Made by a program: the position numbers and the translations under genes. A stretch of DNA of 64,000 bases from Iodobacter fluviatilis. GTDB lineage: Bacteria; Pseudomonadota; Gammaproteobacteria; Burkholderiales; Chitinibacteraceae. Under the pieces are notes generated by a model that ran no database searches, was not told where the DNA came from, and worked only from the letters and a program-made list of their open reading frames with translations. The stretch is taken from positions 1,426,001 to 1,490,000 of the forward strand of contig NZ_CP025781.1 in the NCBI RefSeq assembly GCF_004194535.1, given 5' to 3'. Shown here piece by piece: positions 6,044 to 44,685 of the stretch; within the stretch, counting starts at the first letter, position 1; each line of letters starts with the position of its first letter.

Positions 6044-7573
6044 GTGATCACCATGGAAATGATGGGCAAAATCCGCAGGATGTATTTTCGCGATAATCTG
6101 TCGCTGCACGAAATCACCAAGCGCACGGGGCTGGCGCGTAACACTATTCGCGCTTGGGTTCGCAAACCCGCTGCCAAGGCTGAGCCGCAATACGTACGGC
6201 AGCGTAAGCCTGGCAAACTGACGCCCTATCATGCCACTCTAGAACAAGCCCTGACTGCCGACTCCTTCCGATCCAAGCAGAATCGTCGCACCGCCAAAGC
6301 CTTGTTTGAGCAGATTCAAGCTGAGGGTTATACAGGGGCTTACAGTGGCGTCACTGATTTCGTTCGTGCTTGGCGGGGCAAAGCCGGTAAGACCCCACAG
6401 GGTTTTGTGCCCTTGCAATTTGCTTTGGGCGAAGCCTTTCAATTTGATTGGAGTGAGGAGCATCTACTTATTGGTGGTATTTATCGGCGCATTCAAGTTT
6501 CCCATCTGAAATTGTGTGCCAGTCGCGCCTTCTGGTTAGTGGCCTATCCCAGTCAAGGGCATGAAATGTTGTTCGATGCGCATACTCGATCCTTTGCGGC
6601 TTTAGGGGGTGTGCCGCGCCGAGGCATTTACGACAATATGAAGACCGCTGTTGATAAGGTATTGAAAGGCAAAGGCCGGATCGTGAATGCCCGATTCTCG
6701 GTGATGTGCGCCCATTATTTGTTTGATCCCGACTTTTGCAATGTCGCCTCTGGCTGGGAAAAAGGCGTGGTTGAAAAGAATGTCCAAGATAGTCGGCGGC
6801 GAATCTGGCTGGAGGCGCAAAGCATCAAGTTCAGTACCTTTGACGCATTGAATGCGTGGCTGGCCGAGCGTTGTCGCGTCTTATGGGGCGTGCTCAGGCA
6901 TCCCGAATTCAAAGGTCTGAGCATTGCCGAGATGTTGGAGCAAGAGCGTTTAGAAATGATGCCGATGCCGACCCCGTTTGATGGTTACGTTGAGCATCTG
7001 GCTCGGGTTTCCAGCACCTGTTTAATCACCGTCGCGCGCAATCGTTACTCGGTGCCTTGTGAATGGTCGCGGCAGCGTGTGAGTGTGCGCTTGTATCCCA
7101 CGCAAGTTGTGGTGGTGGCGAATAATGAAATCATGGCCCGACATCAGCGGCTGACGGGGCAACAGCAGGTGAGCTTTGATTGGCTGCACTATATTCCGCT
7201 GATTGCCCGTAAGCCGGGGGCCTTACGCAATGGTGCGCCCTTTACGTCGATGCCTGCGCCCTTATTGCAGCTCAAGGAAAGGTTGTTACGGCGTAACGGG
7301 GGAGACAAGGTGATGGCGCAAGTGCTGGCCACGGTTCCGGTGGCGGGTTTGGATGCAGTACTGGTTGCGGTTGAGTTGGTACTGGAGTCAGGCGTCATCA
7401 GCATTGAACACATTTTAAATGTAGTGGCGCGATTGAATGACCCACCGTCCGCTATTAGCGCTGAAACGCAGCTGCAATTAGTAGAAGAACCGCAGGCGAA
7501 CACCCAGCGTTACGACGGCTTGCGTGCAGCGAGCGAGTTCGACAGCGACCACGAGGAGTCGAGCCATGCATGA
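6044..7573 (+). CDS. istA: IS21 family transposase IstA
   Basis: 509 residues from GTG 6044; ATG 6053, with AAAGG eight bases upstream, is an equally likely start. N-terminal helix-turn-helix (about 15-45: [20 protein letters not shown]). The DDE integrase core has its first Asp in FQFDWSEE, its second in [12 protein letters not shown] and the Glu in [18 protein letters not shown]-terminal region with the usual Mu-type beta domain follows. IstA cuts and joins the element's ends. The stop overlaps the istB start by 8 bases, so the two are translationally coupled. Confidence 0.95.
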
Positions 7574-29180: not shown

Positions 29181-29192
29181 GATCTATGACAT

Positions 29193-29230
29193 AAAAAGCC
29201 CCCCATCCAGCTTTGGATGGGGGGCTTTTT
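29193..29230 (+). terminator. Terminator of clpSA
   Basis: Perfect stem AAAAAGCCCCCCATCC/GGATGGGGGGCTTTTT with loop AGCTTT, immediately after clpA. Bidirectional; it also serves the convergent mscS gene. Confidence 0.92.
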
Positions 29231-29264
29231 ATGAACCTCATTCCTACATAACCAAGCCAAATAA

Positions 29265-42043: not shown

Positions 42044-42802
42044 GTGATTAGCTACGAATTTCCAATTAACGAGCGCATTCGCACCCTTTTGCGACTCGAA
42101 CACTTATACAACCGCACCATAGAGTATGTGGGGAGAAACTCTGCCACCGACCATCATGCGGCCCTACTCGGCCTATTCGAGATTATGGAAGTCGCTAGTC
42201 GCGCGGATATGAAATCAGATTTATTGCAAGAATTAGAACGCCAGCGACAGGCTTTATCTGCCCTGCGAAATAATCCCCAGATATCCGAAGACGCCCTCGA
42301 GCGTGTTTTGATCGACATCGAAGAAACGCATTGCAAGATGTTGAATATGACGGGTAAATTTGGGCAGGCACTACGTGAAAACGAGTGGTTAATGGCCATT
42401 AAACAACGTGTAACGATACCTGGGGGGGCCTGTGCTTTCGATCTTCCCTCCTACCATTATTGGCAGCAGCAAACCCCAGAATATCGCCGCTCAGATATTG
42501 ACGCATGGTTCACCCCCCTGCTCCCCATCAAACAAGGCATCGATATTATCTTACGCTTACTGCGTGACAGCATGCGTGAGAATAGCTACACAGCAAAAAA
42601 TGGCAACTTCCAGCAAATGTCTGGGGGCAAAACCGTTCAACTATTAAGAGTAAGCCTGCCAGCACATTTGGCCGCTGTTCCAGAGCTATCTGCGAACCGT
42701 TACGCCATTAATATTCGCTTTGTTATCCCCTCAACCAGTGGAGAACGCGCCAAGGTCGTTGATTCAGATATCGACTTCCAACTCGGCTACTGCAACCTAT
42801 GA
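42044..42802 (+). CDS. zapD: Cell division protein ZapD
   Basis: 252 residues from GTG 42044, which places [21 protein letters not shown] at the N-terminus as in the family; TTG 41984 is an open but less likely start. Helical N-terminal part and the beta region [28 protein letters not shown] and the end DIDFQLGYC. ZapD cross-links FtsZ filaments at the septal ring. The stop overlaps the yacG start (ATGA). The short 22-codon frame at 41967 before it is probably not a gene. Confidence 0.92.
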
Positions 42803-42990
42803 CAGCGCCTATATTTCAAACCAAATGCCCAAGTTGTGGTAAACAACATACATACTCCACAACGAATCCAAACCGACCTTTTTGCTCCGAACGCTGCAAA
42901 CTGATTGATTTGGGACGCTGGGCAAATGAGGAATACAGCATTCCAGCTCCAATTACCAGCCCTGAGGATGTAGATTCTTTGCCGAACTAA
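42799..42990 (+). CDS. yacG: DNA gyrase inhibitor YacG
   Basis: 63 residues with a single zinc finger of four cysteines: KCPSCGK and [19 protein letters not shown], the family signature. E. coli YacG binds GyrB and blocks DNA binding. Last gene of the pilBCD-coaE-zapD-yacG run. No terminator follows before the olsB regulatory region. Confidence 0.93.
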
Positions 42991-43002
42991 AGCAATGTTA
43001 GT

Positions 43003-43046
43003 CTGTCATTCCAGCTTCATCTCATCGTCATCGCAGTGTCATCTGC
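43003..43046 (+). promoter_or_regulatory. Double Pho-box-like array upstream of olsB
   Basis: Four 7-base half-sites in exact 11-base register: CTGTCAT (43003), GCTTCAT (43014), TCGTCAT (43025) and GTGTCAT (43036), each followed by four bases. PhoB binds direct repeats of CTGTCAT-N4 in the same orientation as the gene, as here. The first half-site is perfect and all four keep TCAT. Weak -10-like sequences (ATTAAG/TTAAGT, 43051-43057) lie about ten bases behind the last half-site, the spacing of PhoB-dependent promoters. PhoB itself is outside the window. Confidence 0.65.
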
Positions 43047-43088
43047 AAGCATTAAGTTTCCTCATACATCGGAGGAAACTTAATGCTT
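43047..43088 (+). promoter_or_regulatory. Perfect 17-bp hairpin sequestering the olsB start
   Basis: Left arm 43047-43063 and right arm 43072-43088 are perfectly complementary around an 8-base loop. The right arm contains GGAGGA (43071-43076, its first base in the loop) and the ATG (43083-43085), so an RNA carrying both arms would hide the ribosome site and start codon. No T run follows, so it is not a terminator. An RNA starting at or after about 43062 would lack the left arm. As DNA it could equally be an operator palindrome. Confidence 0.8.
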
Positions 43089-43826
43089 CAAACTCAGATC
43101 ACCCCTAGCCGTAAACCTAAACTCTCCGCCTCTATCGCGCACAGTGAAGAGCTCATCTGCGCCGCACAAGCACTACGCTACCAAGTGTTTGTAGAGGAAA
43201 TGGGTGCGCGCATGATATGCCGCGAACCTGGCATTGATCGTGACCTGTTCGATGCTTACTGTGACCATTTATTGGTTCAAGACGATGAAACTGGAGAAGT
43301 AGTTGGCACCTATCGCATTCTACCCCCTCATCAAGCCCGTAAACTGGGCAGCTACTACTCAGACACAGAGTTTGACTTGACTCGACTTGGGCATCTACGC
43401 GAACAGTTGGTAGAAATTGGCCGCTCCTGCGTACATCCAGATTACCGCTCTGGCGCCACGATAACCCTGCTCTGGGCAGGCCTTGCTGAGTATATGAGCA
43501 AGAACAACTATAACTACCTTATTGGCTGCGCCAGCATTTCTATTGCTGACGGAGGCCATGTTGCCGCTAGCCTGTACCGCAAGCTTGCAAAAGAAAAGCT
43601 CGCACCTATTGAATGGCGCGTCTTTCCGCGCTGCCCACTGCCCATCGCAACGCTAAATCAACGGTTAGACACAGAAATTCCGCCGCTCATCAAAGGATAT
43701 TTACGTGCTGGTGCGCTCATTTGCGGTGAACCTGCATGGGATCCTGATTTCAATACGGCCGACCTATTTATCCTTTTGCCAATGCAAAACTTGGATATCC
43801 GCTATGCCAGACATTTCATGCGGTGA
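43083..43826 (+). CDS. olsB: Probable ornithine N-acyltransferase OlsB
   Basis: 247 residues, GNAT-type acyltransferase of the OlsB/hemolysin-like family. ALRYQVFVEEMGA opens the domain; YRILPPHQARKLGSYYSDTEFDL and VEIGRSCVHPDYRSGATITLLWAGLAEYM follow, then GCASISIADGG. OlsB attaches a 3-hydroxyacyl chain from ACP to ornithine, the first step of ornithine-lipid synthesis. The start has GGAGG at ideal spacing but inside a strong hairpin. The gene is paired with an O-acyltransferase (olsA-like) and preceded by Pho-box-like repeats. Ornithine lipids replace phospholipids under phosphate limitation in several bacteria, which supports the assignment. Substrate is inferred. Confidence 0.82.
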   Translation: MLQTQITPSRKPKLSASIAHSEELICAAQALRYQVFVEEMGARMICREPGIDRDLFDAYCDHLLVQDDETGEVVGTYRILPPHQARKLGSYYSDTEFDLTRLGHLREQLVEIGRSCVHPDYRSGATITLLWAGLAEYMSKNNYNYLIGCASISIADGGHVAASLYRKLAKEKLAPIEWRVFPRCPLPIATLNQRLDTEIPPLIKGYLRAGALICGEPAWDPDFNTADLFILLPMQNLDIRYARHFMR

Positions 43827-43911: not shown

Positions 43912-44685
43912 ATGCGCACTCCATTGTTCTGCCTACGCCTTAGTCGCTTGTGCCGCTTAATTAGCCATTTTGCTAAAGGATTATTTAAAGTTACCTTTCG
44001 GTTTCCAAGCATGGCACTTGAAGACAGGGTCAACTACATTCAAAAATGGTCAAAACAATTTACTCAAATTTTGGGTGTAAGACTGCGCGTGCAGGGTATT
44101 GAACCTGGACAGTACCCAAGTCAACATATGCTACTCGCCAACCATATTTCTTGGTTAGACATTTTTGTATTAGACTCGGTAACCGTTTCACGTTTCGTGG
44201 CCAAATCCGAGCTCAAGTCATGGCCAATTATCGGCAGACTCTGCATAGGCTCTGGCACATTGTTCATTGAACGTGATCGCAAACGAGATACCGCCAGAGT
44301 CAACCAAGCTATTGTGACCGCTCTGAACGAAGGACATTGCATTACAGTATTTCCTGAAGGCACTACCGGCTGTGGGCGTCAGCTGCTACCTTTTCGATCC
44401 TCACTTCTGCAGGCAGCGATTGATGGAAAGGCAACGATCCAGCCCGTTTATTTACGCTATACCGACGCCGAAGGAAAATATTCAGATGCCGCCACTTACA
44501 TTGGCAACATGTCTATTGCCCAATCTGCGTGGAGAATATTAGGCACACGATCTTTGCATGCAGAGATCAACTTTCTTGCCCCATTTCCAACGGAGCATGA
44601 AAACCGTCGCACTCTTACACAATTTGTAGAAGCACGCATCTGTACTGCGCACCAAGCATTAAACCCTCAGTCAAGCAGTGCTTGA
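43912..44685 (+). CDS. olsA: Lyso-lipid O-acyltransferase (OlsA/PlsC family)
   Basis: 257 residues, PlsC-type 1-acyl-glycerol-3-phosphate acyltransferase fold. Motif I NHISWLD (H-x4-D, about residues 74-80), motif II LFIERDRKRD and motif III VFPEGTTGCG. One hydrophobic N-terminal segment for membrane association. Next to olsB it most probably acylates lyso-ornithine lipid; the bifunctional role as phosphatidate synthase is also known for this family. The 3' end overlaps the convergent apaH stop by 19 bases. The ribosome site is poor. Confidence 0.8.
   Translation: MRTPLFCLRLSRLCRLISHFAKGLFKVTFRFPSMALEDRVNYIQKWSKQFTQILGVRLRVQGIEPGQYPSQHMLLANHISWLDIFVLDSVTVSRFVAKSELKSWPIIGRLCIGSGTLFIERDRKRDTARVNQAIVTALNEGHCITVFPEGTTGCGRQLLPFRSSLLQAAIDGKATIQPVYLRYTDAEGKYSDAATYIGNMSIAQSAWRILGTRSLHAEINFLAPFPTEHENRRTLTQFVEARICTAHQALNPQSSSA

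Follow-up and report, generated by a model that had tools for sequence, protein, structure and literature searches.

A probable translational insulator embedded in the olsB promoter of Iodobacter fluviatilis

Background

Several bacteriophage T4 genes, namely e (lysozyme), soc, 49 and I-TevI, carry a hairpin that hides the ribosome site in long RNA started upstream, and a 100-fold effect is reported for gene e (PMC3014915). As described there, the set consists of phage genes with early/late timing and phage late promoters. A comparable arrangement exists in IS10, in which read-through RNA folds on the ribosome site of the transposase gene, but RNA started at the element's own promoter is without one arm. 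Protection of IS10/Tn10 and of IS200 from outside promoters was reportedly described by Davis in 1985 and Beuzon in 1999. RNA thermometers and riboswitches also hide ribosome sites with hairpins, and there the hairpin is inside the working message.

The gene considered here is olsB, for ornithine-lipid synthesis. Of 43 genomes of Burkholderia sensu lato, 21 were noted to have putative Pho boxes ahead of olsB, and low-phosphate induction of olsB has been proposed, in an account whose accessible part describes no RNA lock (PMC7814305). In the literature covered, mainly titles and beginnings of abstracts with subscription papers mostly outside, we found no lock of this kind at a metabolic gene of a chromosome, and an earlier report may exist. 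The principle is known already, from phage T4 gene e and from IS10; what seems to be new is its setting in a chromosomal metabolic gene.

Here, we describe a hairpin at olsB in a 64-kb stretch of the Iodobacter fluviatilis chromosome (the window; positions below refer to it). The olsB lock is predicted to act in the manner of T4 gene e, in that RNA started upstream would hide the ribosome site. It differs from the T4 genes in belonging to a chromosomal lipid gene with a Pho-type promoter, in occurring across many bacterial families, and in its link with upstream-gene orientation. While IS10 and IS200 are mobile elements with the arm close to the element end, olsB is a regulated metabolic gene. 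As in thermometers, the hairpin lies on the Shine-Dalgarno sequence and the start codon; unlike in thermometers, its left arm is predicted to lie outside the message.

Results

The window contains a hairpin whose arms, at 43047-43063 and 43072-43088 on the forward strand, are 17 nt each, 100% complementary and separated by an 8-base loop (43064-43071), as in the mismatch-free 17-bp hairpin of the original prediction. RNA of 43000-43130 folds at -32.6 kcal/mol (z = -6.2), and none of 200 shuffles folded equally well. The right arm was also correctly described, covering most of the Shine-Dalgarno sequence (GAGG of the GGAGG at 43071-43075), the ATG start codon (43083-43085) and codon 2. Thus, a stable hairpin on the Shine-Dalgarno sequence and start codon, a feature of the T4 gene e type, is found at olsB. 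With arms of at least 13 nt and spacing within 40 nt, nine inverted repeats were identified in the window, of which two are perfect: the olsB hairpin and a 20-bp repeat with a 4-nt loop at 29190-29233. The latter has the ends AAAAAG/CTTTTTATG and looks like a terminator, possibly one for both directions. An apparent second genomic copy of the olsB hairpin proved to be the hairpin itself on the opposite strand, and a plasmid collection searched for relatives returned zero matches.

The gene that begins in the right arm (43083-43826, forward strand) encodes a 247-aa product, a putative ornithine N-acyltransferase with a Pfam Acetyltransf_5 domain (131.4 bits), whose top NCBIfam hits are a pair of OlsB models, at 183.2 bits (cut-off 350) and 179.7 bits (cut-off 320). 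Since both scores fall under the curated cut-offs, the product is named OlsB-like. Its closest named relatives are from Iodobacter (L073, 96% identity; L075, 92%). Downstream on the same strand lies an olsA-like gene (43912-44685; 257 aa), a putative lyso-ornithine lipid O-acyltransferase with a Pfam Acyltransferase domain and two OlsA models as top NCBIfam matches, both under cut-off. The codirectional ORFs 5' of olsB in this 4.59-Mb genome were identified by Pfam as prepilin peptidase, ZapD and YacG, and the other upstream genes of the operon are presumably pil and coaE. The stop of yacG (42799-42990, forward strand; Pfam YacG, 84.5 bits) is 56 nt ahead of the left arm, so ribosomes ending yacG should leave the hairpin closed.

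Four Pho half-sites (GTCAT, TTCAT, GTCAT and GTCAT) occupy 43005-43042 on the forward strand, starting at 43005, 43016, 43027 and 43038. These 11-bp steps ahead of a -10 element are the layout of the Pho regulon, and control by PhoB is predicted. The arrangement is repeated in relatives, and a two-half-site pattern had matches in 43 of 43 family genomes, far over its backward-read control in most. The predicted -10, TAAGTT (43053-43058, forward strand), lies 10 bp past the last half-site. A search of 42700-43200 for TTGACA/TATAAT-type sites gave none. Transcription starts were predicted throughout, being set 7 nt past the -10, which gives 43065 in the window, with an A at 43064 or 43066 as the alternatives. 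The -10 had been expected within the left arm and the start near the loop, at about 43062-43065; both expectations agree with these predicted positions. By layout and conservation, the -10 is predicted within the 5' strand of the hairpin and the start past its end, the order expected of a T4 gene e type of device; the left arm would then be outside the PhoB transcript. In relatives the same promoter-relative segment pairs. The RNA from 43065 does not fold better than its shuffles (z = +0.7), with weak long-range pairing that reaches the Shine-Dalgarno sequence. The predicted cost of opening the ribosome site is 3.9 kcal/mol in this PhoB RNA versus 23.8 kcal/mol in read-through RNA.

To compare the arms among relatives, we collected 150 olsB loci, of which 149 had a start and 75 were left after thinning similar ones (the first set). 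The best promoter score, computed with our own weights on the layout of half-sites and -10 and with one site chosen per locus, was at least 17.0 in all 75 loci, and the predicted leaders were 17-39 nt long. The left-arm core TAAGTTTCCTC is present in the nine same-genus genomes examined, including the window's own. One of these (G003, L045) has a broken olsB, matching in pieces with an internal stop; the Pho half-sites and left arm are retained there and the right arm has a mismatch. This copy was dropped as it had no start. In other genera, the letters of the arms differ and the pairing is mostly retained.

Pairing was measured between a left segment (-16 to +3 of the predicted start) and a right segment (-20 to +6 of the start codon), both native and with segments swapped among loci. 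Native segments paired at a mean of -12.67 kcal/mol versus -7.96 kcal/mol for swapped ones (standard deviation of permuted means 0.28), and none of 20000 permutations was as strong. By locus, 41 of 75 fell within the best tenth of their own swaps and 34 did not. Swaps among related loci pair better, so the test errs on the safe side. With a 12-nt left window moved in 4-nt steps (some windows having 74 of the 75 loci or fewer), z stayed within -1.6 to +1.7 in all ten windows that cover -64 to -17, and the next two gave -2.3 and -2.7. The signal then rose to z = -6.4 at -16 to -5, peaked at -14.2 at -12 to -1 (n = 74), and was -11.3 at -8 to +4 (n = 50).

For a second set, olsB was found at E 1e-40 in 231 of 319 genomes of the order, and 118 loci outside the first set were read from these, 115 of them with a start. 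From these, 83 were non-redundant to each other and to the first 75, and the 73 with a promoter score of at least 17 were used, leaving out the other ten. They are kin of the first set, separate in sequence but not independent in lineage. With a right window of -18 to +6, the nine windows that cover -60 to -17 gave z values of -1.9 to +0.2, followed by -3.7, -3.2 and -3.8. The signal reached -10.0 at -12 to -1 and -12.2 at -8 to +4, and was -7.0 at -4 to +8 (n = 70). Within the PhoB transcript (+1 to +12), no pairing excess was seen in this set (z = +1.2, n = 38). The original prediction had named co-variation of the arms in relatives as one of its checks, and they co-vary in both sets; the contrary pattern that it had named, a left arm lost while the right arm is kept, was looked for across the relatives and was not found. 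Chance as the origin of the hairpin was ruled out by the swaps, by the shuffles described below and by the repeat in the second set.

Accessibility was evaluated as the cost of opening -15 to +3, with read-through RNA modelled from -100. In the first set, the mean cost was 5.0 kcal/mol in PhoB RNA and 12.5 in read-through RNA, and shuffling the left arm of the latter brought it to 8.4; the native cost exceeded the shuffled in 64 of 75 loci, and read-through was below PhoB RNA in four. The second set gave 6.6, 12.3 and 9.6 kcal/mol, and the native arm was again costlier than the shuffled one in 57 of 73 loci. We considered a locus locked if opening read-through RNA cost at least 5 kcal/mol more than opening PhoB RNA and exceeded the left-arm-shuffled value by 1 kcal/mol or more, a threshold chosen on the first set and unchanged for the second. 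By this rule, 49 of the 75 loci in the first set and 33 of the 73 in the second were locked, and 66 of all 148 failed it.

Across the 82 locked loci, the 3' edge of the left arm had its median at +2 (quartiles -1 and +4), lay at or before +4 in 85% and later in 15%, and tracked the leader length (Spearman 0.63). An edge that is centred on +2 and shifts with the leader indicates that the left arm is kept at the beginning of the PhoB transcript. Each left position between -6 and -1 shows all four Watson-Crick pairs across the locked loci. A pyrimidine-purine step was commonest at the predicted start in the 66 unlocked loci (50%, with 35% as the next highest value) and was divided between +1 (38%) and +2 (43%) in the 82 locked ones. 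We take this peak as an independent sign that the starts are placed about right. In the Zoogloea loci L091, L096, L098 and L118, the right arm sits between the Shine-Dalgarno sequence and the start codon, with transcription predicted to begin inside the left arm.

Other genes were evaluated with a fixed 20-nt leader. Starts of zapD and yacG, with kin not thinned, were lock-like in 4 of 99 cases, and window ORFs of at least 150 aa in 5 of 32 including olsB (4 of the 31 others). At the forward-strand ORF at 6044 in the window, the ribosome site folds with upstream sequence and is over the lock threshold. We take this ORF to be IS21-type and transposase-like from the look of its sequence, and a lock there is as expected for an element guarding against read-through. 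A small sample of Pho-pattern loci gave no indication that the lock is a general trait of Pho promoters: 29 loci were read and 13 had a usable start, of which the five that are olsB by their printed protein beginnings were all lock-like, compared to one of the other eight (L289). A further Pho-type promoter in the window's own genome (L155; contig 1, 3507397-3507428) has a predicted 81-nt leader and no lock; from its first residues, the ORF behind it is presumably PhoX-like.

The direction of the upstream gene was called from Pfam and from protein similarity to genes already bearing such names. All orientation counts are for loci with a called direction, setting aside 4 of 75 in the first set (three locked) and 14 of 73 in the second (six locked). 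In the first set, 41 of 54 loci with a codirectional upstream gene were locked versus 5 of 17 with a divergent one (Fisher p = 0.00095), and the two groups showed no difference in PhoB-RNA cost or local GC. The second set gave 23 of 41 versus 4 of 18 (p = 0.023; p = 0.040 minus the weakest calls L171, L173 and L241). Together, this amounts to 64 of 95 versus 9 of 35 (p = 4.5e-5), with median cost differences of 7.4 and 2.8 kcal/mol. An excess of locks beside codirectional upstream genes is expected if the lock protects against read-through. Shifting the limit from 5 to 3, 7 or 9 kcal/mol gave p values of 7e-5, 1e-4 and 0.047, the contrast being weak at 9 kcal/mol (31 of 95 versus 5 of 35).

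The effect was also seen by PGLS. On a quickly built, midpoint-rooted tree of OlsB from 130 loci, divergent loci differed by -3.5 +- 1.0 kcal/mol (p = 0.0006), or by -2.7 +- 0.8 for the left-arm effect alone (p = 0.0013; -2.1 +- 1.0 under full Brownian motion). The independent pairs on well-supported branches numbered only five, with 1.8-4.0 in the expected and 0.1-0.3 in the opposite direction, an underpowered comparison that was not significant. The association has exceptions on both sides: nine divergent loci are locked (L027, L050, L087, L095, L147, L163, L223, L225 and L251), and 31 of the 95 codirectional ones are unlocked. GidA/MnmG is divergent from olsB at L223, L228, L234, L237, L241 and L267, with one of these six locked. 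Phosphate genes were also observed as the upstream neighbour (L062, L217, L226, L251, L256 and L257; L051, L177, L224 and L245; L105), these being polyphosphate kinase (divergent), PhoX (divergent or codirectional) and PhoU (codirectional).

Discussion

The olsB hairpin is probably a translational insulator embedded in the promoter, which would silence read-through RNA and free the RNA started under PhoB. The PhoB-type promoter stretch from the -10 to about +2 would double as the complement of the olsB ribosome site. Any RNA started upstream would contain both arms, fold and stay untranslated. Under phosphate starvation, RNA from the Pho promoter would start in the loop without the left arm, and its ribosome site would be exposed. 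With the left arm only in upstream-started RNA, translation of olsB would be bound to the use of its own promoter. A lock against read-through is favoured because it accounts for the pairing in upstream RNA, for its predicted absence from PhoB RNA and for the codirectional excess. The promoter-dependent gate of the original prediction thus gains support from comparison, namely from the promoter register, the arm co-variation, the lack of excess pairing within the transcript and the fewer locks at divergent genes.

A hairpin that hides a ribosome site is typical of RNA thermosensors and switches, and the olsB hairpin could be one that acts in the working message, with melting, a helicase or a small RNA freeing the site. 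We regard this as quite unlikely, given that the left arm coincides with the -10 to +2 of the promoter in relatives and the message from that promoter should thus be without it. An Rfam search of the hairpin also gave no family match, the best hit reaching 17.3 bits (E = 0.61) against a cut-off of 54.5. A structure that serves processing, decay or attenuation of read-through RNA, rather than a block on translation, would explain the co-variation and the orientation effect equally well. We nevertheless consider it unlikely, as the pairing clusters at the ribosome site, between -13 and +3 of the right segment, and no T-run follows the olsB stem; nothing terminator-like was found in 42700-43200.

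The inverted repeat spans a -10 element, as an operator or another DNA-level repeat for a regulator might. This is a very improbable reading: letters vary among genera while complementarity persists, which a protein reading the sequence would not need, and the swap test rests on RNA pairing. The pairing could finally be a by-product of a pyrimidine-rich start region lying opposite a purine-rich ribosome site, and even swapped arms retain some of it (the mean of -7.96 kcal/mol above). We find this scarcely credible, since native pairing exceeds swapped pairing in both sets, the left-arm shuffle, which preserves composition, cuts the cost in most loci of each set (64/75 and 57/73), and the lock depends on the orientation of the upstream gene. 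Overall, a thermosensor, a target for a helper RNA and a DNA operator fit less well than the insulator.

Conclusions

We tentatively propose, as a possibility that we hold with some doubt, that olsB of Betaproteobacteria is the revealing case of a chromosomal class of promoter-embedded translational insulators, in which the stretch from -10 to about +1 pairs with the gene's own ribosome site where codirectional read-through threatens, and fades beside a turned-round neighbour. If so, inconspicuous locks could also be present at other genes that have short leaders and are under tight control. A simple sequence test is gained, namely the complementarity of -12 to +1 to the ribosome site, which can be applied to any set of mapped promoters. 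For RNA-seq, there would be a caution that read-through RNA across such genes need not give protein, and the arrangement may be of use as a compact design for insulated expression. More broadly, expression of a gene in a compact genome could be tied strictly to the gene's own promoter with no terminator involved, the antisense of the ribosome site being written into the promoter itself. At olsB, the insulator would keep the synthesis of ornithine lipid, a phosphate-free membrane lipid, off under ample phosphate.
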